A stretch of 28,979 nucleotides of DNA, taken from the IMG/VR virus record IMGVR_UViG_3300044846_001670, positions 1 through 28,979 of that record. One strand, 5' to 3'. This DNA is from a virus. A program made the position numbers and the translations under genes. Of this stretch, positions 502-26,391 are shown piece after piece; within the stretch, counting starts at the first letter, position 1, and each line of letters starts with the position of its first letter. A model generated the notes under the pieces. The model did not search any database. It was not told the DNA's origin and saw only the letters and a program-made list of their open reading frames with translations.

Positions 502-3500
502 TTACATAACATTTGTAATAATTCCATTAGTTACAGTTATCATAACAGGAGGCATAGTAGGGATGTTAATGATTCCATTCCATCCTGCCACATTACCCAC
601 CTTGTAGTCTGTGGCGTTTATTGTACCATTTACCTCTAGTTTATTTCCTAGGTCGGTTGTGGTTGCAATGAGTATGTTACCAGTTGAGTCTACGATACGC
701 ATCTTCTCTGCGTTACTTGTACCCATTATAAAGTTTGTTGCTGAGTATGTACCTAGTAAGAAAGATCCTGCTCCTCCGAGGTTTGCTATAAGAGATGCTG
801 TACGGGCTAGTGCTATTCCCATTTGAGTGCCTGAGGCCCCAGAACCAAATACACGATAAACCACGTTATCCGTTTGGTCGTTCTGTGCAACCCAAGCAGC
901 TGTTCCACTTGCACTTGTAGACGATATACGACCAAAGATATTTGCAGCCGCTCCGCTAACAATATGAAGTATGTCAGTAGGAGATGCTGTTCCTATTCCT
1001 ACGTTTCCTGTGTTGTAGTAGATGTCGCTACCAGTAGTAGTCCATTGAGAAGGAGTACCAGCACTTCCGTTAGCTGCCAAAGTAATCCTACCTTGAGCAT
1101 CTACGGTGATGTTTGCGTTAGTATAAGCACCTGCTGTTACAGCGGTGTTAGCTAGAGATATAGTTCCACTACCAGTAATTGTTCCTCCGCTTAATCCTGT
1201 ACCTGTTGCTACTGAAGTTACTGTTCCTACATTACTAGTATAGCCTTGTGCTGAGACCCAACTTTCAGTTGCTATGTTCTGCCAAGCCGTTCCGTTGTAG
1301 AGTAAGTTTTTGTTGTTTGTGGTGTCGTATGCTTGAAGACCAGTAGCAGGCGTAGTGATTGCTAACACCTGAGCGTTGGTCATTCGTGGTTGTAGGAATC
1401 CTAGCGTTGTAGAGGTCATGCTCAACATAGCAGAAGGAACAGGTGTATAGGTACCTAATGATACTCTACCATCTGTCCAGATAGATGATTCATTTGGAGA
1501 AGAACCCCAATACATATTATATGTTGTAAATTTCCACGTTTGTCCTGCTAAACGAGTTGTATTTCCGTAATAAGCTAATGCATTTCCATATCTACCAATA
1601 CTTACAGTTCCATTTGAACTAAAAGAACTATTAAAATCTCCTGTGCTATCCCAACCTATATAAGCAGTTCCATCATCTGTGGTTTTTAATGGAGTAACAG
1701 TTGTGCCACTATTTTGAACTAAGAAGGCGGTGGTCGCACTTGTTGTACCTGTTCCCTTTACTCTTGTACTACCATTTACATCTAGTTTGTATCCTGCGTC
1801 TGTGGTTGTATTAATAAGAACATTACCTGTAGTTACAGCCACCCTCATGCCTTCAGCATATGTTCCGTACGATACAGCATATCCTAAGATTGTAGTACTT
1901 CCTTTTAGGGTTACTGGTTGAATAGTAGTTCCAAGAACAGTACCTATGTTATTTGCGTGCTGAAGAAATGGATTGTTTATACCATCATTCCAAGAAAATT
2001 TAACTCCAATATTATCACTATAGGTTGTATTTATTGTAAGCTGATAACTTCCTACTCCATGAGAAATTACCAATCCATTATACCCACTAGTGTTAACAAT
2101 TGTTAATTTTCCCCCAGTTGAATTTGTATTTCCGTATGTAAATGCTCCTGTGCCTATTAATGTATTTCCTTGTATTCTAGCGGCATAATTACTTACCCCT
2201 GTAAACGCACCATTAGTAAAGGTAGGATTGATGTCTAGTCCTACTAATACGTCATTGTTTGCTGCTGCTACTAAAGTGTTGTTGAAGAATACTCCTCTTG
2301 CGATTGCTGAGGCCGCAGTGATTGAGCCTGCTACTGTAAGTTTTGCCCCACTGTCTGTAGTTGTGTTTATAAGAATATTTCCAACATCTGTAATTCGTAA
2401 ACGCTCTCCAAAGCTAGTAAAAGTTCTTGTGTAAAATCTAAGATCGCCTCCTGTACTACCATTTGGTGCGTAGATAGATTCTATTTTTGCTTGCTCGAAC
2501 TGACCTGGGTAGAAAGTATTTAACTGGGTATTTGCAAAAGAAATAATACTATTTAAGCTACCAGCAGTTGCATAACCTCCTATAACTAGTCTTCCTGGAG
2601 TTCCCAGTACATTACTATATACAGAAAGATTCACAGATCCAGAAGGAGAGATTATTGAATCATAATTACCAACAGCAAGGTTATTATTTGAGTAAAGTAT
2701 CCCAGTAGTTCTTAGGCTTCCATTAACATCTAACTTATATCCTGAATCCGTTGTGGTGCCTATGAGGATATTACCTGTAGTATTTGCAACTCTTAGATTA
2801 GTTTGTCCAGCTAATCCTAAATCTAAGTTATAAGAAGTGCTTCCTGTACGAAGAGTAAAATTTACATTTGAATATCCTTGAAATCCTACGGCTGTAGGTA
2901 AGATTGCTGTATTCCAAATCCAGCTACTTGTACTCATCTGTATTCTATTCTGTCCATCTATACGGATATATCCGTTTGATAAAGACATTATACCATTCAC
3001 AGTTACTATATTAGTAGCATCATTACTATGAGGTGTGTTACTACCTAGATAAACTTTATTATTAGCGGTCAACCCACCCACAGTAATAGCATTCGTGGTT
3101 GTGTTACCTGCTGTGGTTACTTGTGCTAAAGTAGGAATTGAGACCAAAGGCGTACCTCCGAAGATAGCCGTAAAGGTTTTGTTCTTCCACAATCCCGTAG
3201 ACGATTCGTAAGTAAGCAGATCGTTGTTAGCTTCAGAAGCAACAAGAACCCCGTGCAACTCATTTAACTCATATCCGTTTTGAATATGAAGAACTATTCT
3301 ACCTTGGGTAGGGTGAGAACGAGCAATATACCCGATAAATACTGTATGATTGGGTTCGGCAGGAACTGTGCTTGTAAATGCTCCTGCTGTGGTAGCAGAC
3401 AACCAAACAGCATCTCCAGCCGTAAAAGCTGAAGTGTCTAAGTTGTGAAGAGTTCCGTTTGTTGCAACATATCCGTCAGAGTTATTTGAAATATCTGCTT

Positions 3501-4944: not shown

Positions 4945-4957
4945 AGTAGTCGTTATA

Positions 4958-4965
4958 CAAATATA
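4958..4965 (-). promoter_or_regulatory. Candidate promoter -7 element (TATATTTG) for the tail-fibre gene
   Basis: The minus strand reads TATATTTG 13 bases before the tail-fibre ATG, matching TAnnTTTG. T-rich sequence from the preceding terminator lies where a -33 TTTG element would sit, but no exact TTTG is present there. Its place between a terminator and a major gene supports a separate promoter. Confidence 0.45.
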
Positions 4966-4974
4966 ATATAATAC

Positions 4975-5009
4975 AAAAAATAAGAAAGGGGAACTTCTCA
5001 GCTCCCCTT
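4975..5009 (-). terminator. Rho-independent terminator before the tail-fibre gene
   Basis: On the minus strand AAGGGGA (5009..5003) pairs with TCCCCTT (4992..4986) across a 10-base loop, and is followed by TTCTTATTTTTTG. It ends the transcript of the gene at 5073-5396 and separates the metabolism block from the virion block. Confidence 0.75.
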
Positions 5010-5023
5010 CTAGGTTGGTTGGT

Positions 5024-5072
5024 AAACTAAATAACTAAAAACTAAAACTATAAACTAAATAAACTAAAACTA
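5024..5072 (-). repeat. Short AGTT(T) repeat tract in a 3' untranslated region
   Basis: Between the stop of the gene at 5073 and the terminator, the minus strand holds seven AGTT units spaced 6-9 bases apart, separated by runs of T or TA. It has no coding potential that I can see. It may be a slippage product or a spacer. Confidence 0.5.
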
Positions 5073-5396
5073 TTAGATCGCCTGTGGTCCACCTGTTAAG
5101 CTAAAGAAAGCAAGAATTTCTTCTTTTACTTTCAACTCAACTACGATGGGCTCACTTGTGATTTCAAATTTAGTGATTTTTACTGGAACTTTTTGCTTAG
5201 TTGCAGGATCAATCTTATATTGGTAATCTACAGGGTTAAGTTTATCAGCACTTCCTTCTAGTACAACAGCTAAGCCATTGTCTGTAGGGTAGGTCATCAA
5301 TACTTTGTTAAGATCAAAAGAGTAACCCTTCTTAACGATGAGTTCCATCTCTTCGCCACTTTCGATTTTTTCTTTTTCTGTGTAATAGAATAACAT
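5073..5396 (-). CDS. Conserved-looking hypothetical protein, 107 aa
   Basis: A soluble acidic protein starting MLFYYTEKEKIESGEEMEL, with alternating charged and hydrophobic residues that suggest beta strands, and no signal peptide, membrane span or metal-binding cluster. It is the last gene before a terminator and lies 18 bases after the GroES-like gene, so the two are probably co-transcribed. No family is recognised. A role in virion assembly alongside the chaperonin is possible but is only a guess from position. Confidence 0.65.
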   Translation of the reverse strand: MLFYYTEKEKIESGEEMELIVKKGYSFDLNKVLMTYPTDNGLAVVLEGSADKLNPVDYQYKIDPATKQKVPVKITKFEITSEPIVVELKVKEEILAFFSLTGGPQAI

Positions 5397-5414
5397 ATCT
5401 CTTATTTTAACTAA

Positions 5415-5696
5415 TTACCAAGTGAAAGCGATATCGCTATCTCTAACCATAATCTTCTCTTCACCTTCTATTTCTACTAGTTCAGCAGATTGAAGGTACA
5501 TAAGATTAACATATACTACGTCTCCTACTGCTACTTCGGTTACGTCTTTTCCTATGGCGTATACTTCTAAACGCTTAAGGTTTGCTAACTCTCTCATGTT
5601 CATTTCTTCTTCCATCTCTGGTGTAAGTTGGATAAGTCTTTCTTCTCTTTTAGGACGATTGAGTAATACTCTGTGTCCTTTTACTGTGATGCTCAT
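5415..5696 (-). CDS. GroES-like co-chaperonin, 93 aa
   Basis: Length and motif order match the Cpn10/GroES fold: an N-terminal strand with K-G-H-R-V-L-L-N, a central VYAIGKDVTEVAVGDVVYVN resembling the GroES G-D-x-V strand, and a C-terminal EEKIMVRDSDIAF resembling the GroES ending E-x-x-x-I-x-x-x-D-I-L-A. The region in place of the mobile GroEL-binding loop (about residues 18-38) is polar and Glu/Met-rich and differs from bacterial GroES. Phage homologues such as T4 gp31 and RB49 CocO replace host GroES so that host GroEL folds the capsid protein; the same role is inferred here. It precedes the virion block. The leader is A-rich with no Shine-Dalgarno. Confidence 0.65.
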   Translation of the reverse strand: MSITVKGHRVLLNRPKREERLIQLTPEMEEEMNMRELANLKRLEVYAIGKDVTEVAVGDVVYVNLMYLQSAELVEIEGEEKIMVRDSDIAFTW

Positions 5697-5716
5697 ATTT
5701 TTTCTTTTAATTTAAT

Positions 5717-6157
5717 TTAATCTAGTTCTGCTTTAATTACATCTAGACCTGCAGCAATCAGAAGCTCTAAGCCTGATCTGTCTCTGTAGTCTTCAATGTA
5801 TACAAATGTAACGATTCCACTTTGAATTATCAACTTAGCGCAATGCACACAGCATGCATGAGTACAGTACATAGTTGCGTCTTCTGTACTGATAGGACTC
5901 TTGCATGCTTTAGTGATTGCATTAGACTCTGCGTGTAATACAGAATCTAGAGTTACGTCATTCTCTTCGCAGATATTAGGGAAGCCGTGGATATTTCCAT
6001 TATAGCCGAAGGAGATAATATTACCTCCCTTAACTATAAGACACCCTACCTGTAGTCGCTTACAATAAGACTCCAAAGATATTCTTTTAGCTATGTCTAA
6101 GTAAAGCAATGCTTTATCTCCTACTGCTGCGTTGTAAATGATTGGTATCTTATGCAT
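5717..6157 (-). CDS. Deoxycytidylate (dCMP) deaminase
   Basis: A 146-residue zinc-dependent cytidine/deoxycytidylate deaminase fold. The catalytic H-A-E is at 75-77 (LHAESNA), and the second zinc motif C-x-x-C is at 103-106 (ACCVHCAKLI), where the usual Pro before the first Cys is replaced by Cys. GYNG at 51-54 and SGIVTFVYIEDYRD at 113-126 are typical of the dCMP deaminase branch. The reaction is dCMP to dUMP, the substrate of the thymidylate synthase at 24618-25658. The gene is separated from its upstream neighbour by 1 base. A generic nucleoside or other deaminase is less likely given the C-terminal motif. Confidence 0.87.
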   Translation of the reverse strand: MHKIPIIYNAAVGDKALLYLDIAKRISLESYCKRLQVGCLIVKGGNIISFGYNGNIHGFPNICEENDVTLDSVLHAESNAITKACKSPISTEDATMYCTHACCVHCAKLIIQSGIVTFVYIEDYRDRSGLELLIAAGLDVIKAELD

Positions 6158-6158
6158 A

Positions 6159-6626
6159 CTATGGTTTTAAACTTTCTTCAAATCTATAAATTTCTTTTGT
6201 AATATCCACTACTACTCCGTTAAAGTTTATGTCTTTATGTAATAGTAGTTTATAATCCTCAGAGAATTCATCGAATCTATTCTGTTTAAACATCTCTAGA
6301 TCCCTGTGATAAATCTTGTTAGGCTTAAATACATACATTATTCTTTCGTCTACTTCATAGTAGTCAAAAAAAGAATCAAAGCTAGTAATCTTCCCTTCAA
6401 AGGCTCTGAAAGCACTACTCTCTACAGGTTCAAACAGAAAAAACAAACAGTTAGAATGCTTAGACTTAAAACCATAATCATCTAGATAAACATTAACTAA
6501 ACCAAAATTATACAAAAGTCTAGCAGCTTGAGCCCCTGAAGTAAATATCAGGGGACTCATAAACCTAGTAGTATTGTTAGTGTTCTCGTTCACTCCTATG
6601 TAATTAGATAACTCTGATACCGTCAT
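6159..6626 (-). CDS. Hypothetical protein, 155 aa
   Basis: No family is recognised. The protein is soluble, rich in Phe and Tyr (NCLFFLFEPVESSAFRAF), with no catalytic motif. The frame is open to 6689, but the ATG at 6626 (MTVSELSNYIGV) is preferred because the longer version would overlap the nuclease gene by 86 bases instead of 23. It sits between the nuclease and dCMP deaminase genes. Confidence 0.6.
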   Translation of the reverse strand: MTVSELSNYIGVNENTNNTTRFMSPLIFTSGAQAARLLYNFGLVNVYLDDYGFKSKHSNCLFFLFEPVESSAFRAFEGKITSFDSFFDYYEVDERIMYVFKPNKIYHRDLEMFKQNRFDEFSEDYKLLLHKDINFNGVVVDITKEIYRFEESLKP

Positions 6627-7572
6627 TTTCGTAATCTTCTTTAGTGTATGCCCACAAATCATTCTCAGAGTGCCATATAAGTCTCTCAATGGCTTGGTGG
6701 AAACCTTCGTAACTCTTGCCTTGGAATACTCCTCCCATCTTACCTATAGCCATGGCTTCATCGGACAGCTCATAGATTAAAGGACTACCTGGAAACTTTT
6801 GGCTTTCTACGATAAATCTAAAGTTACTTACTTTTAAATTATCTCCGTAGATACTGAGATCTGTTTGTTTTAAGGCTTCTGTGTAGAATGCTCCCTGAAA
6901 ATCATAACGATACTTCATAAGAGTGTCTGTCCAGAAGTTTAAGGAAGTAGTAGTGGTCTTCAGGTCAATAGGATAAAGTATGTTGTTTACAACGTCCACA
7001 ACTACCAAATCTAATAAACCCTTACACTTCACTCCTAAGTACTCAAAACTTAAGGCTTGTTGGGTAAATACTTTGTACTGTGAGTTACCTTTTACAAACT
7101 TAGAAGTGAAAGCATGTGACTTAAGTCCTTCTGCAATATTAATGATTAGGGCTTCTTGGGCAAAAGAGATTACTTTCTTGCCTTCTGCTGCAATCAAATC
7201 CTCGTAGTAGGTCTTACCCTCCACTTCGAATCTTTCTCTTACCTTAGCGATAGTATCTCGCTTAAACTTTGCTGCTTCATACGCAATAGTCTCAGCCATA
7301 CTATCTTCTCGGTTACAGAATAGACTCCATACAAAATCTCCCATTTGTCCTGTAGGTCTTTCTACACTACTGATGTGGAACTCTGATCTGAATACTTCTT
7401 CTCCTTGAGTTAAAATTAAATCAACTCCATCACCTATTAGAGTTACTTCTGCTGGCTCATCTGTATCGGAGCTAGGGTCATAATTATAATATAGGTTAGG
7501 ATGTTGTAGTAGCTTTTTAAGTCTGCTTTGACTCTGTGCTGTACTGTCTAAGTATCCTTGATCTAAAATCAT
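6604..7572 (-). CDS. PD-(D/E)XK exonuclease-like protein (RecB/Cas4/DUF3799 type)
   Basis: A 322-residue protein with the PD-(D/E)XK nuclease signature: GLLDLVVVD (Asp188), then YPIDLKT (Asp203, Lys205), then a RecB-family Q-x-x-x-Y motif in DFQGAFYTEA (Gln226, Tyr230). The N-terminal GDGVDLILTQGEE resembles the G-x-x-x-H-x-x-x segment of Cas4/RecE-like proteins. Likely activity is 5'-3' resection of duplex DNA, feeding the Sak4-like and NinB-like recombination proteins encoded nearby. Asp in the D-L-K motif replaces the more usual Glu, which is allowed in the family. Its start overlaps the upstream gene's stop (ATGA). Confidence 0.72.
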   Translation of the reverse strand: MILDQGYLDSTAQSQSRLKKLLQHPNLYYNYDPSSDTDEPAEVTLIGDGVDLILTQGEEVFRSEFHISSVERPTGQMGDFVWSLFCNREDSMAETIAYEAAKFKRDTIAKVRERFEVEGKTYYEDLIAAEGKKVISFAQEALIINIAEGLKSHAFTSKFVKGNSQYKVFTQQALSFEYLGVKCKGLLDLVVVDVVNNILYPIDLKTTTTSLNFWTDTLMKYRYDFQGAFYTEALKQTDLSIYGDNLKVSNFRFIVESQKFPGSPLIYELSDEAMAIGKMGGVFQGKSYEGFHQAIERLIWHSENDLWAYTKEDYENDGIRVI

Positions 7573-7751
7573 TTGTCTATTTTGTCTATTGTTAAAGTTA
7601 AATTAAACCACAAAAACCCTAGGTGAACACTAAACTTTTGTCTAGAGTGTGTTCTACTAAGGGTTAGTGTAGGGATTACGTAGAAAAACCAATAAGGATA
7701 ATCTCGTTGTCCTTGTTTTCCTCTAAAGAAATTACTGAATTTTACCTTCAT
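7569..7751 (-). CDS. Small hypothetical protein, 60 aa
   Basis: A basic 60-residue protein with aromatic stretches (YPYWFFYVIPTLTLSR and VHLGFLWFNLTLTI). The hydrophobic parts alternate like beta strands rather than forming a clear membrane helix. It overlaps the gene before it by 20 bases and the one after by 4 (ATGA), typical of compact phage operons, which supports translation. Function unknown. Confidence 0.6.
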   Translation of the reverse strand: MKVKFSNFFRGKQGQRDYPYWFFYVIPTLTLSRTHSRQKFSVHLGFLWFNLTLTIDKIDK

Positions 7752-8091
7752 CTGTTAAGTCGTTAAATTCAGGCTTTTCTCTGAGTATGTAGGCAATAAA
7801 CATAGCATTACATTGTATGTGTCCTATGTGGTGAATCAAAGACTCCTTATCGTGAGACTCACCTGACAACAAACTAAACGTATGTCTAAGCATGCTTTCA
7901 ACTACTTCGCTTACTGGCATTCCTTTTTTCCAATTCTCTCTGGCATATTTTTTTGCCCCAAACTCTAAGACTTCCACCATTGGCTCTAGAGACTTAAAAT
8001 CTACTAGAGACCAATGTGCTTTGCCTTTGTTAAAACGAAGTGCTTGTCCTCCTTCGTTAAAGTCTTCCATAGCAGGGAAATCATCCGTCAT
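7732..8091 (-). CDS. dATP/dGTP diphosphohydrolase-like protein (DUF5664 type, all-alpha NTP pyrophosphatase)
   Basis: The 119-residue protein carries the family pattern K-G-K-A-H-W-S-L-V-D then LEFGAKKYARENWKKG (43-58), then RHTFSLLSGESHDKES (69-84) and HHIGHIQCNAMFI (87-99). The acidic and His residues of the latter two helices are expected to bind metal. The family is annotated as hydrolysing dATP/dGTP to the monophosphate. No PurZ-like adenylosuccinate synthetase is in the window, so a link to modified purines is unsupported; nucleotide-pool control is more likely. It lies among nucleotide-metabolism genes. Substrate assignment is from family knowledge only. Confidence 0.72.
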   Translation of the reverse strand: MTDDFPAMEDFNEGGQALRFNKGKAHWSLVDFKSLEPMVEVLEFGAKKYARENWKKGMPVSEVVESMLRHTFSLLSGESHDKESLIHHIGHIQCNAMFIAYILREKPEFNDLTDEGKIQ

Positions 8092-8093
8092 GA

Positions 8094-8366
8094 TTAACGC
8101 ATTAAGGCTCCTGTAGTAGTTTTAGAAGGAGGCTGTAAGAAAACTGTTAGAATAACTCTTCCAAACTTCATAGGAAGTATGTCAGTAACTAATCCGAGAG
8201 TTCCATTACAATTAACGACAGACCCTATAGAGATTGTAATTTCTCCTTTGTCTCCTTTTTCGTCTCTGTAGGTAACTGAATTCTCACCATAGTAGTGGCT
8301 AATTCCAGGAAAGCCCACGGCTTCCACTTTGTCTGTTTCTGTTCTTGGTTCTATAATGTATAACAT
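8094..8366 (-). CDS. Hypothetical protein, 90 aa
   Basis: A small soluble protein with beta-rich composition; VTYRDEKGDKGEITISIGSV then NGTLGLVTDIL hints at a small barrel (SH3/KOW-like) fold, but this is weak. It sits 2 bases before the diphosphohydrolase gene start and 4 bases after the NinB-like gene, so it belongs to the same operon. No function can be assigned. Confidence 0.6.
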   Translation of the reverse strand: MLYIIEPRTETDKVEAVGFPGISHYYGENSVTYRDEKGDKGEITISIGSVVNCNGTLGLVTDILPMKFGRVILTVFLQPPSKTTTGALMR

Positions 8367-8370
8367 AATT

Positions 8371-8808
8371 TTAGGTTAGTTCTGGTACTTCCACTCCCAG
8401 TATTTCTCTTGCAAAGGTAATAACATCTTGGATAAACTTATGAACTTCTTCCTTCTTTCCCTTAGAAAGTGAGAGAGGAGTTTTGATGAATTGTCCCTGA
8501 AACATAATCTCTTCGTAGAAGTACTTGTCCTTAAGGAAAGTCACTACGTCTTCTTTGGTATATACTTCCCCTGTAAGCGATTCAAATCCTCCTCGGATAA
8601 TAGGTACTAGGGTACTATAAAAATAAGCCAACTGAGGGTTTGTTTTCTTTGAGTCAATTCGTGTGATACAAATTTCTACATCTACTTTTGGATCTTGTTT
8701 CATAAGTTCTCTAAAATAAGTCTGCATTAATTCTCTATCTCCCTTAAGATGAACTGTGCCATCTATGTTAAGGGATAGAGATGCAGGTATGTAAACTCTA
8801 TTTATCAT
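8371..8808 (-). CDS. NinB-like recombination protein
   Basis: A 145-residue protein. The central segment K-K-T-N-P-Q-L-A-Y-F-Y-S-T-L-V-P matches the R-S-x-P-Q-N-x-x-Y-(W/F) signature of NinB/Orf-like phage proteins, and the end (EEVHKFIQDVITFAREILG, then V-E-V-P-E) matches the usual C-terminal helix and I-P-x-P tail. NinB/Orf of lambda is a recombination mediator that works with single-stranded DNA and SSB; the same is inferred. NinG is encoded nearby, as in the lambda nin region. It overlaps the upstream gene's stop by 4 bases. The match is by pattern only and moderately sure. Confidence 0.5.
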   Translation of the reverse strand: MINRVYIPASLSLNIDGTVHLKGDRELMQTYFRELMKQDPKVDVEICITRIDSKKTNPQLAYFYSTLVPIIRGGFESLTGEVYTKEDVVTFLKDKYFYEEIMFQGQFIKTPLSLSKGKKEEVHKFIQDVITFAREILGVEVPELT

Positions 8809-9068
8809 AACTTATTGTTTGTTCTCTTTTCTATTTCTTCTAATAATAAGAATGCCAACTCTTCGTCTTCGTCAATCTGATTACTAACGTTTCTCTTTTC
8901 TAGATAACCATCTAAAAGCTTTATAAAGTAAGCGTTCTTTGCCTTAGCTTCGTTGATTGCTTTCTTTAAATCAGGATTGACGAACTCACGAATGAATTGG
9001 TATTGTGTGTTTACAGCTCTAGCTAGGAGATAAGTTCTCCTAACTTCTTTAATCTCTTCTTCTTTCAT
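8805..9068 (-). CDS. Hypothetical charged helical protein, 87 aa
   Basis: The start is placed at 9068 (MKEEEIKEVRRTYLL), where TGATG joins it to the polymerase stop; the frame is open further upstream to 9125 but that part lies inside the polymerase gene. The protein is highly charged, predicted helical, with EDEELAFLLLEEIEK near the C-terminus. No family is recognised. Translational coupling to the polymerase suggests a possible accessory role, but this is inference from position. Confidence 0.6.
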   Translation of the reverse strand: MKEEEIKEVRRTYLLARAVNTQYQFIREFVNPDLKKAINEAKAKNAYFIKLLDGYLEKRNVSNQIDEDEELAFLLLEEIEKRTNNKL

Positions 9069-11038
9069 CACTTTTTCCAAAATGGCGCTACACACGGATC
9101 TGCTTTTAGTTTTACTCTTTTGCAAAACTTAGCACCTGCATCTACCATTGATTTTTCTAATTGTTTTGCTGTTTCTTCTGCTATTTCTAGAGGAGTTTCT
9201 ACCAATATTTCATCGTGTATTATATTGACTATCAATACTTTGAACAATAAATTATTAGGTATTAAATACTTATTCCAGAAATACACACAAGCTAGTTTAG
9301 TAATTTCCGCAGATTCACCTTGTATAGGGTAATTAAGAGACATCCTTTCAATGTCACCTCTCTTTCTAAAGAATCTACTGACTTTCTCCTTCATTTGCCT
9401 AGCAGTAGGAGTGTCACTATTCTTCATAGATTTGTACCTATCCCAGAATTCTTTGGTTAATTCACCCTTAATCTGTGCAAACTCTTCGTAATAATCTACG
9501 TAAGATCTCTTACCTGTTACAGGAGAGATTAACACATAACCATTCTCAATACCGAACTTCTTAGTTTCATCAAAATAAGCCTTAAGTCCAGGGAAAGCTG
9601 CAAAGTATGCATCATAGATCTTTTGACCTTGCTCTACACTTAACCCTAGTTGGTCTGCTATACCAATACCTGAACCCCCGTAATTGATCGAAAAACCAGC
9701 AACCTTAGCTGATTGTCGCTTATCCTTGTGCTTCTTTTTGATGTCATCTAAGTCCATACCATCTAACTCAGGATACATCTTAGAGGCAATAAACGAATGC
9801 ATATCACCCAGATCATTATCGTAGAACTCAAGTAGGTTTTTATCTAAGCATTTGTTAACTAGTACAATCTGTTCTTGTCCTGTATAGTCACAACCTACTA
9901 GAGTATTTCCTTCTGATGCTACAAAGCAACTACGAGTCTCTTGGTCTGATGGAATGTTTTGAAAGTTAAAGTTCTTTACGTTACCTGATTTACCACCACT
10001 AGATAAGCGTCCTGTGTTCATCAACTGCTTAAACTGTGTATGTATTCTTCCGCTTACTGGATTGATCTGTTCTATCCAGTTGTAACCATAAGTTCCTATG
10101 TCTTTCTGTGCTTCTTTAAATGAAAGATAAGTTTTAATAATTGGATACTTAGTTGCAAACTTACCTAAGTGGTTTGCTTCTATTGTTTGTTTCTTAACTC
10201 CTTTCTCGACTACAGTTGTATCCACACCTATAGCTTCAAAGAATTCTACAACCTGTGAGGGTGAGTTCCAATTCACATTAATTTTGTTACCTGAAGAGAA
10301 CATGTCTAACTGAGTGTCTATAAATTTGGACATCTTGTTCTCTAGAATAAACTTATTAAGTGCTTCTACTGCCTCATCAGCTTGTATCTGCACTTTCTCA
10401 ATCTTCTTGGTCCATTGTTCTACGTCTAGTTTCATACCACAATACTCGATATATGCTAGTACTAGAACAAAGCGATTGTCCAATTGAATGGACACATCTG
10501 TACCTTCTGTAAACTGAGAGAAGTTTTGCTTTGACTTGATTTCGTGTAGGTATTTTACGTCATAGGCAGAATATTTAACAAACCCTTCGGTTAGTCTACC
10601 TGTAATGTTTGCTCGTTCCTCCTTACTAAGTGTTACTCCGCAATGACGTTGTACACAAGCAGCTAAAGAACATCTATGACTTTCTATACCCAAACGGGAT
10701 GTTTTCTCGCCTAAAAATGTATCATATACCCTAGTGGGTACAATTCTCTGATGATACAAGAATCTTAAGTCAAACTTAAAGTTATGACCTATGAGTTCCT
10801 TAATTTCTAATAAATTCTTGTACTCTTGGATGTCTATTGTAGATAGGTCTACAACATACTGGACTTCTCTATCTCCTAACTGCAGGGTATAAAACTTGCA
10901 AGTATATGGATCAAAGCCACTAGTCTCGGTATCGACACCAATAGAGTCTAACTTATCTAAGTAATCTAGGGAATCTTGTACGGAGCAGAGGGTTACATCA
11001 GGTAGGGAGATATCTTGTTTTGTTACCAGATAAATCAT
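9068..11038 (-). CDS. Family A DNA polymerase with 3'-5' exonuclease domain
   Basis: A 656-residue replicative polymerase of the Pol I/T7 family. The proofreading domain has Exo I VDTET (Asp36, Glu38), Exo II HNFKFD (Asn86, Asp90) and Exo III YSAYD (Tyr156, Asp160). The polymerase domain has motif A GCDYTGQEQ (Asp384; the usual DYSQIE is changed to DYTGQE), motif B RQSAKVAGFSINYG (441-454) and motif C IIHDE (Asp609). All catalytic carboxylates are present, so proofreading and synthesis should both be active. There is no 5'-3' exonuclease domain, as usual for phage versions. Neighbours are helicase, primase-like, SSB-like and NinG genes. Its start overlaps the NinG stop by 4 bases. Confidence 0.95.
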   Translation of the reverse strand: MIYLVTKQDISLPDVTLCSVQDSLDYLDKLDSIGVDTETSGFDPYTCKFYTLQLGDREVQYVVDLSTIDIQEYKNLLEIKELIGHNFKFDLRFLYHQRIVPTRVYDTFLGEKTSRLGIESHRCSLAACVQRHCGVTLSKEERANITGRLTEGFVKYSAYDVKYLHEIKSKQNFSQFTEGTDVSIQLDNRFVLVLAYIEYCGMKLDVEQWTKKIEKVQIQADEAVEALNKFILENKMSKFIDTQLDMFSSGNKINVNWNSPSQVVEFFEAIGVDTTVVEKGVKKQTIEANHLGKFATKYPIIKTYLSFKEAQKDIGTYGYNWIEQINPVSGRIHTQFKQLMNTGRLSSGGKSGNVKNFNFQNIPSDQETRSCFVASEGNTLVGCDYTGQEQIVLVNKCLDKNLLEFYDNDLGDMHSFIASKMYPELDGMDLDDIKKKHKDKRQSAKVAGFSINYGGSGIGIADQLGLSVEQGQKIYDAYFAAFPGLKAYFDETKKFGIENGYVLISPVTGKRSYVDYYEEFAQIKGELTKEFWDRYKSMKNSDTPTARQMKEKVSRFFRKRGDIERMSLNYPIQGESAEITKLACVYFWNKYLIPNNLLFKVLIVNIIHDEILVETPLEIAEETAKQLEKSMVDAGAKFCKRVKLKADPCVAPFWKK

Positions 11039-11679
11039 TTTAATAACGGTCCTACTATTTTGTTATAATCGTGTAATGCTTCACGGAGCTTCTGATACTT
11101 CTCAGTCTGAGTGTAGTTGCCTTGTTCAATATCTGTAAGACAAGTTCTGTACACATCGTAGATGAGTTTTCTATCATGGTTGCTTAGCTTAAGAATCTTG
11201 TTAGAGAGCTGAAGCATGTCTTCTGTAGTGTCTTCTCCCCATATCCTATTTAAAGACTTACCTAAGTTCCACACGTGGTGAGGAGTATATAGGTTACATT
11301 TAGGACAAGCAGGTAAAAGATTAGTCAAATGGTATCGTGTAGATACTTTGGTTCTCCCTACGAAGTGTGCACACTGAAGTCCTTTGGGGTCAAGTGTAAT
11401 CTCACAAGCATGGCACTTATTGATGTGTGCTCCTCTTACTAGCCAGGAAGTTATTTGGTCTAGTCTAGTTTGAGTAATAGTTTCTTGTTTGATCTTTCTC
11501 TTGATCTCCTTGCGGACTTTTTGCTTAGCTTTTTTCTCTTTTACTACACATGTAGCACACAATCTCTTAGTCTTGTTTGCTATTGCTTTAATCTTACCAC
11601 ACTCAGAGCAAGGCTTTTGCAAATCTTTCTCTTCAGGTAGTCCCTTTACGGGTATTTTCTTAGGTGTTCTCTTTAACAT
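11035..11679 (-). CDS. ninG: NinG (Rap)-like recombination protein with HNH-type zinc centres
   Basis: A 214-residue protein matching lambda NinG/Rap: an N-terminal zinc ribbon (Cys24, 27, 41, 44), a Lys-rich helical linker (KEKKAKQKVRKEIKRKIK), then CHAC (89-92), LQCAHFVGRTKVSTRYHLTN (101-120) and LLPACPKCN (121-129), typical of the HNH/Rap nuclease core, followed by YTPHHVWNLG. Rap is a Holliday-junction and D-loop endonuclease used in phage recombination. It is the first gene after a terminator and starts only 6 bases after a TATATTTG element, so it probably opens a transcription unit containing the polymerase. Confidence 0.88.
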   Translation of the reverse strand: MLKRTPKKIPVKGLPEEKDLQKPCSECGKIKAIANKTKRLCATCVVKEKKAKQKVRKEIKRKIKQETITQTRLDQITSWLVRGAHINKCHACEITLDPKGLQCAHFVGRTKVSTRYHLTNLLPACPKCNLYTPHHVWNLGKSLNRIWGEDTTEDMLQLSNKILKLSNHDRKLIYDVYRTCLTDIEQGNYTQTEKYQKLREALHDYNKIVGPLLK

Positions 11680-12807: not shown

Positions 12808-13509
12808 TTATTTTAAGTTTTCTAGCCATACAATATCATCTGGATTGCTGGCCATGAGGATTTGGTTAATTCTTGTAAAGTGATCACACTCCCACTCTCC
12901 TCCTTTGTATAGTGCGGAAGCAGGGTGAGATGCTGTTAATACGTGGTGAAATTTGTCATCAACTAAGTGAGCAAACTTTAAAGCGTCCTTACCCCAGAAA
13001 CAAAAGATTAAACCTGTAGTACTACTACTTAAAGTTTTAAGTACTTCTTCGGTAAACTGTTTCCAAGGCTCCAAGTGAGAACCTGACTTACCTTCTTCAA
13101 TAGTTAAGGCTGCATTTAGCATAAGAACTCCTTGCTTAGCCCATGATTCTATGTTCATATCTATGGGGAAGGAGAGTTCGTCTGGATAAATATCTTGTTT
13201 GATTCTATTGTACATAATCCTAAGAGAAGGAGGTATGTAGTCTCGGTTTCTAGGTGCAAAAGAAAGTCCACATGCTACTGGTTCACCCTTATGTTTGTTT
13301 GGATAAGGGTCCATACCTAGTATAACTACACGGACTTTCTGAAAGGGAGTTAAATTAAAAGCCCTGAAGACTTCATCCCTGTTAGGAAAGATTTGTTTAC
13401 TTGCTCTTTCCTTAGCGATGAAACCCCCAAGGCTTCTAAAATACGGACTCTCTATTGTTTCTCTTAAATGTTGATACCAATCGTCTGGTATATCAATTAG
13501 TTTTTTCAT
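12808..13509 (-). CDS. ung: Uracil-DNA glycosylase, family 1, with variant GMDPYP motif
   Basis: A 233-residue enzyme that removes uracil from DNA. The water-activating motif is GMDPYP (Asp67) instead of GQDPYH; poxvirus D4 has GIDPYP, so the change is compatible with activity. Other family features are present: GLSFA (81-85), VLMLNAALT (128-136, uracil-binding Asn132), FCFWGKDA (169-176) and HPASAL (195-200) for the H-P-S-P-L loop with the catalytic His195. The start overlaps the DnaA-like gene by 17 bases. A UDG beside dUMP metabolism fits removal of misincorporated uracil; a structural processivity role as for D4 is a possible alternative. Confidence 0.88.
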   Translation of the reverse strand: MKKLIDIPDDWYQHLRETIESPYFRSLGGFIAKERASKQIFPNRDEVFRAFNLTPFQKVRVVILGMDPYPNKHKGEPVACGLSFAPRNRDYIPPSLRIMYNRIKQDIYPDELSFPIDMNIESWAKQGVLMLNAALTIEEGKSGSHLEPWKQFTEEVLKTLSSSTTGLIFCFWGKDALKFAHLVDDKFHHVLTASHPASALYKGGEWECDHFTRINQILMASNPDDIVWLENLK

Positions 13510-18953: not shown

Positions 18954-20381
18954 TTAAAGTTTGACAATTTCCTCGAAAGGAACTTCTCCAGCTTTGCAGT
19001 CTTTCATCATCGTCTCAATGAAATCTTGCTCGTCTTCAGGTACGTTAAAGATGCTTTCGCATTCATAACAATAACTGTTAAGTAACAAATCATTTGTAAC
19101 GTGAAGTTTATCACCTAGACAGTTAGGACAGATACCTTCCATCATCATTTCATCAAGGTCTGCTTGCTTGTAAAGAACCTTTGATTTGTTGCTGAATGAT
19201 TCTAGTCCTTCTCTTAGTCTTGGGTCTTGATACTGAGGGTAACATTCTGTCATCCATTCGCTGTAGATTTCATACTCTTCTTCTGCTGCGGCTTCTTCTG
19301 CTTTATCTTTATCATAAGCAACATCTCCAAAAGGATCTAACATGTCCAAGGGATCTTCTGGTCTAGACCAGTGCTTTGAACTTTTAGCAGAAGCCAATTT
19401 GCTTTTTGGAGGCATCCACTCTCCCTTCTGTATGTCATAGTACCAATCTTCATCATCATCATCCCAGATATTAATCTGCTTAGCACCTGTTCCCAAGTAA
19501 GTAGAACTAGATTTAGTCTTACTACCTCCATAAGGAAGCTCAGAACGAAGATTAGGTACAGGGAAGGTAAGAGGAATGTTTCTCTCAGCTATTTTAACTA
19601 ATAAGTCATAAGTAAAACTGAAGGCGTTAATCATCAAAGCAACACTTGCTACCTCACTGTCTCCGTGTTCATTAAAGTAGCCGCATGATTGGTTAAATGA
19701 AGATACTTTTAGTCCTCGCTGACGAAGTTTGCCCACGTCTGTAGCCGTACCTGAGTTAAGAGAGTAGCCATACTTATCCATCAAAGGATCTAGCAAATCA
19801 TAGTGGTCAGGATTGAAAGTCTGAACTCCATTAGTAAATTTGATAAAGTCATTTGTATAGGATCTGCGATCTAGCTGTGCAACAACTAAAGAGTTATCAA
19901 AGAAACTCATATCGCAGTTTCCACTACCGATACAACCCCTTTCTTCCGCATAGAACAATGCTACTTTACAGTTTGGAAGCACCTTAAGCATTTGAATAGC
20001 AAAGCATACACCTACAGAGTCATCGAGACCTAAGCCACACTGTTCACCTCTTGCATTGTCAAAGCCAAAAATCCACTCATCTGTTTTGAAGATTCGCATA
20101 CCTACATGATAGTCTTGAGCTGTGTCATAATGAGCTACAATAGTAGGATAGAATTCTGCTGCTCCTTTTGTGCAATAGATATTGCCTCCTTTCTCATACA
20201 CAGTAACTCCTTCGATCTTAGAGATAAGCTCTATAAGCCAATCTTTCTTAATTGCTTCGAGTTCTGGTTGATAAGTAGGACTTTGTTGATACATAATATC
20301 AAATAGTAGATCAAAGTCTACTGGAAAATCACCCTTAATGGTGTGGTCTATTGCTTCTAGTTTGTTTGTTGTGTATTTCAT
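18954..20381 (-). CDS. M20/M28-like zinc metallopeptidase with C-terminal zinc ribbon
   Basis: A 475-residue protein. The first 270 residues match the co-catalytic di-zinc peptidase fold: AHYDT (His84, Asp86), GLGLDDSVG (bridging Asp near 121), AEERG (Glu146/147), QLDRR (Asp171) and NEHGDSE (His239), i.e. the full ligand set for an amino- or carboxypeptidase/deacetylase. A disordered acidic, Asp/Glu/Lys-rich stretch (about 320-390) follows, then a zinc ribbon CPNC (418-421) and CYEC (438-441). A peptidase inside a replication operon is unusual. No signal peptide is seen, so it acts in the cytoplasm. Substrate unknown. Confidence 0.75.
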   Translation of the reverse strand: MKYTTNKLEAIDHTIKGDFPVDFDLLFDIMYQQSPTYQPELEAIKKDWLIELISKIEGVTVYEKGGNIYCTKGAAEFYPTIVAHYDTAQDYHVGMRIFKTDEWIFGFDNARGEQCGLGLDDSVGVCFAIQMLKVLPNCKVALFYAEERGCIGSGNCDMSFFDNSLVVAQLDRRSYTNDFIKFTNGVQTFNPDHYDLLDPLMDKYGYSLNSGTATDVGKLRQRGLKVSSFNQSCGYFNEHGDSEVASVALMINAFSFTYDLLVKIAERNIPLTFPVPNLRSELPYGGSKTKSSSTYLGTGAKQINIWDDDDEDWYYDIQKGEWMPPKSKLASAKSSKHWSRPEDPLDMLDPFGDVAYDKDKAEEAAAEEEYEIYSEWMTECYPQYQDPRLREGLESFSNKSKVLYKQADLDEMMMEGICPNCLGDKLHVTNDLLLNSYCYECESIFNVPEDEQDFIETMMKDCKAGEVPFEEIVKL

Positions 20382-20386
20382 TGTTT

Positions 20387-22408
20387 TTAAATTAAAAATT
20401 GATCAGGACTTTCAGCAGTCTCTGATTCTGTTGGTAAGTGTTGACTTAACTCTTCAACTGCTTCTGCAAGACTCTCTATAGTCAAGTTATTCTCAATAAC
20501 TCCGATAAAAGTGTTATTATAAACTTGACTTGGGTGATAGAAACGATAAGGACTACTAGAAGAAGTACTGCTTGTCAGTATAATAGTACTTGAAGTTGTA
20601 ACCCCAGTTGTTGGGTGCGCAGTAATAGTAGTAAGAGGCTCACTATAATCTTCTGTAGTTTCTTCTGGCTTATTCTCATCATCTGGGTGATAAAAGGATC
20701 CGTTGATCAGTTCATACGTATGCTCATTATGAATAAAGAAACCAAAACCATTCTCATATTGTCTGAGATAATCATCGTTTTCATATGCATAATCTCCATC
20801 AAACAATTCTACAGCTCGATTTCTTAATACAGGGTCACTATTATAGTCTTGTACGAAGTCATCTCGATCTGTAAAATTAGCATCCATCACCTCTGAATAG
20901 ATAGAACAATCACCACAACATCTTTCGTCTACATATCTACCTGCGTCTATATGGCAAGAATCATCATATTCTATCTCTGCATCACAAACAACACAACATA
21001 TAGTATCAGGGAGACCTGAGTGGTTATAGAAATTACCTCCAGTACACCTAAGGGTATAGTGATGGCCTTCTCCATAGTTACTTAAGACTTGATCGTCAGG
21101 ATGGTAACAGTAAAGAGTATCTACGTAAGGAAACTGATTAATTCCAGTTAAATCTATCTTAACAGAATAACGTTCTGATGTTTGCCAGATCCTCTTATAG
21201 TTAGCGGATTCTAGAGCAGTTTTAAGTAAGTTCTCAGTTTCGGTTTTAGTAGAATAGATTCTATCGTAAGCCCACTGGTTACCTAGATTCCACAGAATAG
21301 CTCTAGCTGCTACTTTATTGGCTCTCATAAGTACTCCTATCTTAACCTTAGAAGGATCTCTAGTATACATCTCGAAGTATGATTGACATCTTTCATAACG
21401 CATACAAGAGCTACCTAAAGTATTACTGTGGGCGTGATAGTTGTCTTCGTCATAAGCCCACTTAATTTGTTGTCCTTCCATAATTCTAAAATCATATAGA
21501 GGATTAGAGATTGTGATAAGAGAGGCATAAGATTCTGAGAACGTAGTGATATCCCTATCAGAATATTTATCTTTAAAAATCCTACGAATAAGTTTACCTA
21601 CAGAAGTATGATAACGCTTCTTATAGTTCCATACCTCAGGTAATACTACTTCAGTATTTTCAAACTCTACACCTATTATATGAGGATAAGTAGTAGTTAT
21701 AGTAAGACCTGCTTGGTCAATAGAGAAGCCATTAATACCATACACTACACTGTGTCTGATAAGAAGAGGTTCCGAGTCTTGTTCTAATCTAGGTATATTG
21801 TAAGAGTAAGAAACTTCCTCATCCACTCCATTAGTGTGACTTGTATAACGATTAGCAGTAAAAGAACCTTTCTTTTCATAGAATTCTTTGATAGGATAAA
21901 CTAAGTTATTTAAGTGACGAGCAGTAAGAGTAAGTCTTTTAGTATAAATAGCCTCTGAGTCTCCATATAATCTTGTTTTACCTATGTGTAGTATTAACAC
22001 AGTACCAGGTCTAATCATCTGCATTCTTGTTTCTTCGCCTTCTAATCTATTTTTACGGTCTTCGTCTAGATAAGAAAGTTTGCTGTAGTCTGCTTGTGAT
22101 AAACCAAGATAATTACAATACTTAGAGCCTTCTGGGACTCTTTTAAGCGATAATAAGTCATCTACTATGTCCTTTACGATTTGGGGGACATCAGTAGCCT
22201 TAAGTTTAATTAAGCGTCTTTTTAGATCCTTGTGCATTACAAACTTGTCTGTTAAGACTTTACGTGCACGTTTCACTTTAGGAGCATGAATAGCAGAGAC
22301 TTCAATAGTTTTTTCTGCTTTTTCTAAAAACTCCGTAGAGAATGGATCATCAAAGATTTGAAGTTGTTGGCCTGCAATTAGGCCTGCTGATTCTAATTCT
22401 TCTGGCAT
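20387..22408 (-). CDS. Large phage protein of unknown function with Cys cluster and Ser/Thr-rich tail, 673 aa
   Basis: No named family is recognised, though segments such as SSCMRYERCQSYFEMYT then RANKVAARAILWN and DRIYSTKTETENLL recur, as I recall, in large phage proteins of unknown role. The N-terminal 60 residues are basic and disordered. About residues 505-545 hold a dense Cys/His cluster (CCVVCDAEIEYDDSCHIDAG; DERCCGDC) that probably binds zinc. A Ser/Thr-rich linker (SSTIILTSSTSSSSPYR) lies near 620-640, ending in an acidic tail. It is the first gene after a terminator. No membrane segment or signal peptide. Confidence 0.75.
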   Translation of the reverse strand: MPEELESAGLIAGQQLQIFDDPFSTEFLEKAEKTIEVSAIHAPKVKRARKVLTDKFVMHKDLKRRLIKLKATDVPQIVKDIVDDLLSLKRVPEGSKYCNYLGLSQADYSKLSYLDEDRKNRLEGEETRMQMIRPGTVLILHIGKTRLYGDSEAIYTKRLTLTARHLNNLVYPIKEFYEKKGSFTANRYTSHTNGVDEEVSYSYNIPRLEQDSEPLLIRHSVVYGINGFSIDQAGLTITTTYPHIIGVEFENTEVVLPEVWNYKKRYHTSVGKLIRRIFKDKYSDRDITTFSESYASLITISNPLYDFRIMEGQQIKWAYDEDNYHAHSNTLGSSCMRYERCQSYFEMYTRDPSKVKIGVLMRANKVAARAILWNLGNQWAYDRIYSTKTETENLLKTALESANYKRIWQTSERYSVKIDLTGINQFPYVDTLYCYHPDDQVLSNYGEGHHYTLRCTGGNFYNHSGLPDTICCVVCDAEIEYDDSCHIDAGRYVDERCCGDCSIYSEVMDANFTDRDDFVQDYNSDPVLRNRAVELFDGDYAYENDDYLRQYENGFGFFIHNEHTYELINGSFYHPDDENKPEETTEDYSEPLTTITAHPTTGVTTSSTIILTSSTSSSSPYRFYHPSQVYNNTFIGVIENNLTIESLAEAVEELSQHLPTESETAESPDQFLI

Positions 22409-24102: not shown

Positions 24103-24615
24103 TTATACTAGTTTTAGTAATTTTTTATATTTAGATCTAGATAGTTTAAGTCCAGTTACAGCTCCATCGTAGCAAAGGTTTTCTGCTCTACATGCTTCTG
24201 CTACACTTTTATAGTAAGTACCTGTTTTCAGACTTACTACGTGTATGTGCCAACTAGAAGCTTTGATTGCATTTAAGTGCATGATGTTCTCTACTCTGGT
24301 ACCCCACTTAAGATTGGTGTAGTGATTGTTAAGCTTATCTCCGTCTAAGTGTATTACACACTCACCTTCAGGTCCATCTAAGAAAAGTTTGGCTACCAAA
24401 GTTTGCCTAAACACTCGTTTCTTAACAGAACCTACAGATAAGATAACTCCTGTAAGTCCATCACGATTAATAAAGCCTTTTAAGATCTTTTCTTTCTTAA
24501 CTCTAGCTTCTAGTCTACCGAATCTAGGTTGACTGTAAGATCTTTCTAAGCTTTTAACCTCTCCGTATTCATTTACATGATAATATTCTTCGAATCCTGG
24601 AATAGGCTTCCACAT
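24103..24615 (-). CDS. HNH homing endonuclease with NUMOD4 domain
   Basis: A 170-residue free-standing homing endonuclease. The N-terminal WKPIPGFEEYYHVNEYGEVK is a NUMOD4 motif. The HNH core is VIHLDGDKLNNHYTNLKWGT (about 82-101) with its His and Asn residues, and eN-x-x-H follows (VENIMHL). The C-terminus has a NUMOD1-like DNA-recognition helix (VVSLKTGTYYKSVAEACRAE). It lies 2 bases after thyA and 1 base before the HTH gene, typical of an endonuclease gene inserted without disrupting its neighbours. Both start and frame look intact, so it is probably active. Confidence 0.88.
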   Translation of the reverse strand: MWKPIPGFEEYYHVNEYGEVKSLERSYSQPRFGRLEARVKKEKILKGFINRDGLTGVILSVGSVKKRVFRQTLVAKLFLDGPEGECVIHLDGDKLNNHYTNLKWGTRVENIMHLNAIKASSWHIHVVSLKTGTYYKSVAEACRAENLCYDGAVTGLKLSRSKYKKLLKLV

Positions 24616-24617
24616 AA

Positions 24618-25658
24618 TTAATTGCTTAAAGGTGCTTTGATTGTTGGATGTGATTGGTAATTAACTAACTCAAAATCAGTATTGTCTAGATGTGAGTACA
24701 AAGACTGATCTTCTGATAGTGACTTATAGAAACTATCTTCTTTCAAATGGTTTAATGTAGGTAAGTCAAATCCCTCTCTTTCAATCTGCTCTTTAGCCTG
24801 CTCGATGTGATTTAAGTAAAGGTGAGTATCGCCTAAGTTACCGATTAGCTCTTCAGGAATCATGTTAACTTCTTTAGCAATGATAGTCAATAGAAGAGCA
24901 TAAGAAGCAATATTAAATGGCAAACCTAAGAATGTATCTACAGATCTTTGATTCCACATTAAAGAAATAGCTCTACTTGGGATATTAAACTTCTCAAAGT
25001 CACTTAAGGTAAGTTGTGCTTTACCACTAAAGTGTTTGTCCATGTACGTCTTCTTCTCTTCGTAAGTCAACTCTCTTGTGTAGACTTGGAAGCCATAATG
25101 ACAAGGAGGAAGAACCATTGTATCTAATTCACCTACATTCCAAGCATTAACCATTAATCTTCTAGAGTCTGGATTAGTCTTTAAACCGTTGATTAGATTG
25201 GCAATTTGGTCTACACTTGTTTCAGTGCCGTAATCCATGTCTTTATCAGATACCCAACTTCTCCATTGCTTACCATAAATCGGACCTAACTCACCATATC
25301 TAGCAGCAAACTCAGGATTAGTCTTAATCGCTTCTACAAACTCTTCTACGGTGTAAGCGTCTCTGTCATTTGGTCTAGGTTCACGGTAGGCTTTGTAAGC
25401 GTCTCCTGTCCAGATATTACATCCGTTATCTAAAAGGTATTTAATGTTAGTGTCGCCCTTTAAAAACCACAGCAATTCAGTTACTATTGTCTTCCAAGGC
25501 ATCTTTTTAGTAGTTAGAAGAGGAAATCCATCACTCATCCTATGTCTAATGGTGTAGCCAAAGATTGATTTAGTACCTCCATTTCTGGTTTCTTTTTTTG
25601 TACCACTCTCTAAAACATCTTTTAAGAGATTTTGATAATCTAAATCCAATTTATTCAT
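24618..25658 (-). CDS. thyA: Thymidylate synthase
   Basis: A full-length 346-residue ThyA: phosphate-binding Arg25 (in KKETR), catalytic Cys186 in LPPCHYGF, nucleotide-binding NQRSVDTFLGLPFN with Asn249 (dUMP-specific; dCMP hydroxymethylases have Asp), GDTHLYLNH and the C-terminal H-P-T-I-K-A-P. It converts dUMP and methylene-tetrahydrofolate to dTMP. The usual T-G-T-G-T after Arg is N-G-G-T-K. The ATG at 25658 is chosen (MNKLDLDYQ); it overlaps the GIY-YIG stop by 8 bases, and the open frame upstream lies in that gene. An orphan copy of the first 25 codons lies 756 bases further upstream, beyond the endonuclease gene. Confidence 0.95.
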   Translation of the reverse strand: MNKLDLDYQNLLKDVLESGTKKETRNGGTKSIFGYTIRHRMSDGFPLLTTKKMPWKTIVTELLWFLKGDTNIKYLLDNGCNIWTGDAYKAYREPRPNDRDAYTVEEFVEAIKTNPEFAARYGELGPIYGKQWRSWVSDKDMDYGTETSVDQIANLINGLKTNPDSRRLMVNAWNVGELDTMVLPPCHYGFQVYTRELTYEEKKTYMDKHFSGKAQLTLSDFEKFNIPSRAISLMWNQRSVDTFLGLPFNIASYALLLTIIAKEVNMIPEELIGNLGDTHLYLNHIEQAKEQIEREGFDLPTLNHLKEDSFYKSLSEDQSLYSHLDNTDFELVNYQSHPTIKAPLSN

Positions 25659-26391
25659 TTTCTTTATTTTTATATTTCCATTTGTACCCACCAGCTGTTT
25701 GTTGTTTTCCTTTACAAACAGCATTTATGTTATATATTTTTAACTCTAATTCAGCACTAGTGACACTTTCCCACTCTTTTATAAAACCCCCATCTATATC
25801 AAACTGAAGTATTGGTTTTCTCTTTTTAGATGGCCCTAACTTGACTCCTTTTTTAATTCTAGATATTTTATCTGAAAACCCGTTTGGCTTAGGTTTTCTT
25901 AGTTTTTGTTTAGTCTCAACACTACACTTTCTACCTTTAGAAGATTCGGATATTTTTTTCTTTGTATCATCACTATGCTTCCAGCCACTTTTTATTTTGC
26001 ACTGTTGATATTGTGATATTTTTATTTTCCATTCTTCATATCTTCTATCAGCCTCAGCCTTGCCGAATTTTTCAAGCCAATACTTGTATCGACCTCTTCT
26101 TAAAATCTCTTGACCTAACTTTCTATCTCCTTCTTTACTTCCGTCACTTATGTTATATCCAATAGTCTTATCTACACTGTTTAAAGTTTTAATCCAGTAA
26201 ATTTCTTTTTCGTTTAGCTCTTGGAGAGTATAGCATTCTTCCAATATCTTTTTTTTAAAATTTTTCTGTCCATACTTTTTTACAGCAGCTTTTAGTAATT
26301 TCCCACTTCCATAGTAGTAAGGATTGTTATTTTTATCTTGCCCTACGTAAATTTTACCATTTACCAAATTAGTTGTTTTGTAGATAATCAT
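25651..26391 (-). CDS. GIY-YIG homing endonuclease with NUMOD3/NUMOD1-type modules
   Basis: A 246-residue free-standing homing endonuclease. The GIY-YIG nuclease domain occupies about 1-95: MIIYKTTNLVNGKIYVGQ, then YYYGSGKLLKAAVKKYG and LNEKEIYWIKTLNS with the metal-binding Glu. It is followed by a basic linker, NUMOD3-like repeats (HSDDTKKKISESSKG; SVETKQKLRKPKPN; FSDKISRIKKG) and a C-terminal NUMOD1-like module (PILQFDIDGG; AVCKGKQQTAGGYKWKY) that reads DNA. Frame and motifs are intact. It lies between a 5' thyA fragment and the complete thyA, whose ATG it overlaps, and its own start lies inside the reading frame of the fragment. Confidence 0.9.
   Translation of the reverse strand: MIIYKTTNLVNGKIYVGQDKNNNPYYYGSGKLLKAAVKKYGQKNFKKKILEECYTLQELNEKEIYWIKTLNSVDKTIGYNISDGSKEGDRKLGQEILRRGRYKYWLEKFGKAEADRRYEEWKIKISQYQQCKIKSGWKHSDDTKKKISESSKGRKCSVETKQKLRKPKPNGFSDKISRIKKGVKLGPSKKRKPILQFDIDGGFIKEWESVTSAELELKIYNINAVCKGKQQTAGGYKWKYKNKENE

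Follow-up and report, generated by a model that had tools for sequence, protein, structure and literature searches.

Hundreds of sequenced phages, the KP34-like Klebsiella phages among them, carry a protein of family PHROG 4191 that is annotated, as in KP34, as "putative peptidase" but has been given no role; a search of open-licence papers returned no functional test of any member. In KP34-like phages, the peptidase gene belongs to the conserved core together with a second gene, here called SCM, whose family is of unknown function (PMC4411677). Neither this peptidase/SCM pair nor the fold of the SCM protein was found described in the open-licence literature. Among known enzymes, PepT and Xaa-His dipeptidase (M20) and the tetrahedral aminopeptidases (M42) have the catalytic fold and the metal ligands in common with the phage enzyme (Z 23-27), but they carry a lid/dimerisation domain (M20) or a PDZ-like domain (M42) that is missing from it. 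For the SCM protein, the closest likeness is to FemX and the aminoacyl-tRNA-dependent transferases, whose GNAT domain resembles the core of the SCM model. Another GNAT protein of phages, Rac of LUZ19, is an acetyltransferase whose action leads to proteolysis of a host protein (PMC7552054).

Here we analysed a stretch of viral DNA of 28,979 nucleotides (the window) in which a PHROG 4191 peptidase gene (18954..20381, minus strand; 475 aa, ATG start) lies directly downstream of an SCM gene (20387..22408, minus strand; 673 aa), with 5 bp between the two reading frames. The pairing of these genes across tailed phages of widely differing kinds suggests a widespread module in which an amide bond on some target is both formed and cleaved.

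Peptidase family and active site

The window peptidase, a predicted co-catalytic di-metal enzyme, matched the PHROG 4191 "peptidase" profile with an E-value of 1e-28 and, taken alone, is an ordinary member of this known phage family. Its match to Pfam Peptidase_M28 (E 0.013) scored 15.7 bits against a curated cut-off of 21.3; the copies in PP16, Jenst and TSP4 passed this cut-off, and 62 of 71 diverse relatives matched M28 at E<=0.01. A PDB search with the single peptidase sequence gave no matches. In family, catalytic residues and adjoining partner, the window copy is like KP34 gp11, PP16 gp11, VP93 gp7 and the phi38:1 peptidase, while it differs from these four by a long acidic linker and a C4 ribbon.

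No variation was seen among the 71 aligned relatives at H84, D86, D120, E146, E147, D171, R172, T214, D215, N230, H239 or E243. The clan MH set of metal-binding and catalytic residues (HxD...D...EE...D...H) is therewith complete in the window peptidase and invariant (71/71). The first-pass annotation had named His84, Asp121, Glu146/147, Asp171 and His239 as the ligands. All of these but one were invariant, the exception being Asp121, whose column holds Cys in 41 of the 71 relatives. From the alignment, the bridging Asp is assigned to D120 and not to D121, because D120 is invariant and lies four residues before the invariant G124, a spacing that we take to be that of M28 enzymes. With this correction, a check of the homologues for lost ligands found none (71/71 intact).

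Group I introns with a LAGLIDADG endonuclease interrupt the gene in some relatives, directly after the E146-E147-R-G motif in L035, L045 and L054 (~4900-6000) and directly before the H239 motif in L052 and L053 (~6690-7870), the endonuclease itself having been read from the sequence in L045 and L053. It is common for homing introns to occupy conserved sites of important genes. Given this habit, their presence at two different active-site motifs fits a strong constraint on the active site of the peptidase.

Predicted fold of the peptidase

The AlphaFold2 model built from the 71-row alignment covered residues ~10-270 at a pLDDT of about 81-98. Together with VIA-align and the invariant columns, it delimits a catalytic domain (19569..20354, minus strand; residues ~10-271) that contains H84, D86, D120, E146, E147, D171 and H239. 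VIA-align scored Xaa-His dipeptidase at Z 26.8 and PepT at Z 26.7, and Foldseek reached 1e-9 to PepT and M42; the structural matches from the two programs comprised PepT, Xaa-His dipeptidase, carboxypeptidase G2, TET aminopeptidases and LysK. Neither an M20 lid/dimerisation insertion nor an M42 PDZ-like insertion was present: model residues 17-271 aligned to the catalytic domain of targets of ~340-490 aa. The fold search thus recovered the M20/M28-type similarity that had been proposed from the sequence, as a clan MH enzyme of M28/M42/M20 type without a lid domain. Moreover, the proposed cytoplasmic, non-lysis nature of the enzyme held up, and its suggested target, a peptide or amide-linked molecule, gained support from the minimal lid-less MH-clan domain, which suits exopeptidases and amidases. 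The alignment and the model indicate that the product of gene 18954-20381 is a co-catalytic di-zinc peptidase or amidase of clan MH with a single catalytic domain and an intact active site, its activity being predicted.

Acidic linker and zinc ribbon

By pLDDT profile and composition, the catalytic domain is followed by an acidic linker modelled mostly at low confidence (19131..19568, minus strand; residues 272-417), with 26 D/E against 12 K/R in residues 301-400, and then by a C4 zinc-ribbon-like motif (19059..19130, minus strand; C418, C421, C438 and C441). The ribbon was kept in 51 of 58 peptidase reading-frame pieces of the window's family, some of which are truncated or split by introns, and in 6/6 Callevirus-type peptidases; elsewhere it was found in 16 of 137. 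Thus the fusion of linker and ribbon to the peptidase, as earlier noticed, is real in both its parts, but it is lineage-specific, being found mainly in two lineages of Bacteroidota phages.

Linkage of the peptidase and SCM genes

Peptidase relatives were gathered irrespective of their neighbours, and a scan of viral contigs with a rhizobial alignment (A3) confirmed at least 573 of them. Linkage was evaluated at the 115 loci whose flanks measured 2 kb or more on both sides; removal of near-duplicates left 55 of them. An SCM gene lay within 1.6 kb of the peptidase at 114 of the 115 loci and was directly adjacent at 110. Among the non-redundant loci, 54/55 had an SCM neighbour, against 11/55 for the second commonest neighbour family; the SCM gene was upstream on the same strand at 48, downstream at three and on the opposite strand at three. 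The pair thus stays together in either order and is sometimes divergent.

The pair was found in Bacteroidota phages, KP34-like phages, Phimunavirus/Kotilavirus, VP93-like phages, rhizobial phages and Thermus phage TSP4, and also in the Cellulophaga phages Calle_1 and phi38:1, Pectobacterium phage PP16 and Rhizobium phage Pasto. Two of these carriers, TSP4 and phi38:1, have non-pathogenic hosts. GenBank records of the two genes, counted by name and not matched record by record, were equal in number (SCM/peptidase) for phages of Klebsiella (231/231), Pectobacterium (51/51), Vibrio (42/42), Escherichia (10/10), Shigella (4/4), Thermus (10/10) and Cellulophaga (7/7) and for uncultured megaphages (5/5). 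Four marine-type megaphages (LR756501, LR756502, LR756504 and LR745206) showed an unusual paired expansion, with 13, 17, 7 and 7 SCM matches and 8, 6, 5 and 6 peptidase matches respectively, a few of the weakest being short fragments. The closeness of the two genes in these megaphages was not significant (4/22 peptidases within 3 kb of an SCM gene). In P74-26 both genes are present and lie apart, and similar peptidases without a detectable SCM gene occur in phages of Bacillus and Brevibacillus and on several bacterial chromosomes.

Two further arrangements were observed. In Enterococcus phage VRE9_4 (2628-5953), a PHROG 34186 peptidase has a PHROG 18912 gene on either side, and an SSCH motif is present in one of these two; the arrangement is possibly a remote version of the SCM/peptidase module. 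A contig of Mesorhizobium sp. STM 4661 (4628-11377), probably of prophage origin, carries two SCM/peptidase pairs close together.

Downstream of the window peptidase are genes for a DnaB-like helicase and a DnaG-type primase. The first-pass annotation was therefore right to place the gene beside helicase genes, and its early/replication location holds: the gene is just ahead of primase and helicase in PP16, KP34, NTUH-K2044-K1-1 and VP93, and the pair precedes them in the last three and in Buco. This neighbourhood, to which that annotation had attached its reading, is nevertheless not conserved, since Callevirus and Thermus phages differ, while the conserved partner next door had gone unremarked.

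Sequence and predicted fold of the partner

Within an alignment of 63 SCM sequences, the residues held in common were S334-C335-M336, Y348, R369, Y385, P427-Y428 and D430. In the S-C-M motif (21401..21409, minus strand), S and C were invariant (63/63) and M was present in 62/63. KP34- and VP93-type partners, which the first SCM profile had missed, carry the S-C-M, R, Y and PYxD motifs on reading. A Cys-rich region (CCxxC...CCxxC; 20906..20998, minus strand) probably binds zinc, as suggested by the positions of its Cys residues and by weak LIM/double-zinc-ribbon matches in relatives. The family matched only families of unknown function in PHROGs, no member matched a Pfam GNAT model, and PADLOC anti-phage defence profiles matched neither the peptidase nor the SCM gene in the three phages searched.

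AlphaFold2, run with the 63 SCM sequences, yielded one model of the 673-aa protein (pTM 0.42) with a core at a pLDDT of around 80-96. The best PDB match in Foldseek was FemX (probability 1.00, E 2.4e-3; no E-value reached 1e-3), followed by GNAT acetyltransferases, MprF and ATE1. VIA-align of residues 301-409 to GNAT domains gave Z-scores of up to 9.2, mostly 7-9, over 90-102 residues, including 7.0 for the aminoacyl-tRNA-dependent peptide synthase Sbb17; all 50 rows covered this one core, and nearly all were acyl- or aminoacyl-transferases. The core (21182..21508, minus strand) is accordingly predicted to have a GNAT fold, which we grade as likely and not as proven because the E-values are modest and the model is a single one. 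In the model, helix 2 begins with S-C-M, strand 4 ends with Y385, and Y428/D430 follow beyond it; we infer that these residues would converge on an active-site cleft.

The pyrophosphate loop that binds acetyl-CoA (Q/RxxGxG/A after strand 4) was absent from the SCM proteins, 3/63 chance regular-expression matches apart. Because of this absence, SCM would more likely work in the manner of the FemX-type aminoacyl transferases than as a classical acetyltransferase. It differs from FemX and the aminoacyl-tRNA-dependent transferases in the single GNAT-like domain of its model (the FemX type has two), its own S-C-M motif, its putative zinc-binding Cys-rich tail and the lack of sequence similarity.

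Rac and SCM are both GNAT-type phage proteins (SCM by prediction), but Rac has an acetyl-CoA pocket, is encoded next to the RNA polymerase gene and relies on proteases of the host, while SCM is without the P-loop and has a peptidase of its own. As a relative of SCM, Rac was rejected on its different locus and its acetyl-CoA pocket (PMC7552054). A toxicity screen of the Drulisvirus fHe-Kpn01 yielded three toxic proteins; as these are of 69, 182 and 146 aa, none of them is the SCM protein, and this identification was likewise rejected.

Possible function of the pair

We tentatively read the peptidase and SCM as a two-gene phage module in which a transferase and an amide hydrolase act on a common host or phage target, a reading to which we give somewhat less than even weight. 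The two genes would be expressed together with the early/replication genes. SCM, as a GNAT-fold acyl- or aminoacyl-transferase without the acetyl-CoA P-loop, would form an amide bond on a target of host or phage origin, which may be a protein end, a side chain, a peptide or a small amine. The peptidase would cleave the same kind of bond, so that the modification is reversed or the modified product trimmed, and among the Bacteroidota phages it may be tethered to a partner by its acidic linker and zinc ribbon. The transferase activity, the shared substrate and the early timing are what we infer here, beyond the peptidase fold, the conserved active site and the gene linkage that the analysis shows and the GNAT fold that it predicts.

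The adjacency of the two genes, strict as it is, would also suit a peptidase that matures the SCM protein by trimming it, for instance at the N terminus or in the acidic C-terminal tail, so that SCM is the active factor. The C-terminal ends of SCM proteins are indeed acidic (about 10 of the last 40 residues), and the structural matches of the peptidase include LysK and carboxypeptidase G2, enzymes that take off residues at the C terminus or residues linked through a side chain. The invariant residues of SCM (S, C, Y348, R369, Y428 and D430) are however typical of an enzyme and not of a substrate; moreover its C-termini are unconserved in sequence and no cleavage site was seen, and we consider such maturation unlikely. 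On the other hand, that the closest peptidase folds are PepT, PepD and the tetrahedral aminopeptidases, and that the megaphage authors counted a peptidase among auxiliary metabolic genes (PMC9723777), would agree with a host-directed or nutritional role of the enzyme, as an exopeptidase that supplies phage growth with recycled peptides, and with SCM being merely co-transcribed. Yet the two genes co-occur almost perfectly across very distant phages; because they do so in either order and orientation, co-transcription alone is insufficient, which leaves peptide recycling a distinctly improbable account.

Location beside replication genes, together with putative zinc-binding motifs in both proteins, raises the question of DNA or nucleotide modification, with the pair acting like Mom of phage Mu, a GNAT-fold DNA modifier that also occurs in jumbo phages (PMC7824862), and the peptidase taking off a group held by an amide link in the course of base modification. 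The conserved neighbours, however, included no genes for nucleases or for base synthesis, and the 7-17 divergent SCM copies per megaphage genome suit diverse protein or small-molecule targets better than a single base or metabolite, albeit by argument only. Mom is missing from the listed structural matches of SCM, which is inconclusive and does not count as evidence against it. We hold a role in DNA modification to be very unlikely.

Within the preferred reading of a transferase paired with an amide hydrolase, a more specific form would be reversible amide conjugation, in which a CoA-independent, aminoacyl-tRNA-using GNAT-fold transferase places either an amino acid or an acyl group on host targets and a dedicated di-zinc enzyme serves as deconjugase, the megaphages then holding 7-17 writers and 5-8 erasers. 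This form is speculative and on balance doubtful. The two-gene module as such, if it acts as proposed, would bring a new kind of modification, of proteins or small molecules, into phage host takeover or counter-defence. Through the pairing with a predicted transferase, what was an isolated "putative peptidase" becomes a biochemical system open to testing.

Other genes in the window

Several other genes of the window, all on the minus strand where a strand is given, were noted. An intein-like block, in which a LAGLIDADG_3 domain was matched (E 3.8e-7), is part of a tail-fibre-like protein (502-4944, minus strand). Reading frames 24103-24615 and 25651-26391 (minus strand), which flank the thymidylate synthase gene (24618-25724), by eye resemble HNH- and GIY-YIG-like free-standing endonucleases. 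A dATP/dGTP diphosphohydrolase-like gene is located at 7732-8091 and a gene of the uracil-DNA-glycosylase superfamily at 12808-13509, both on the minus strand.
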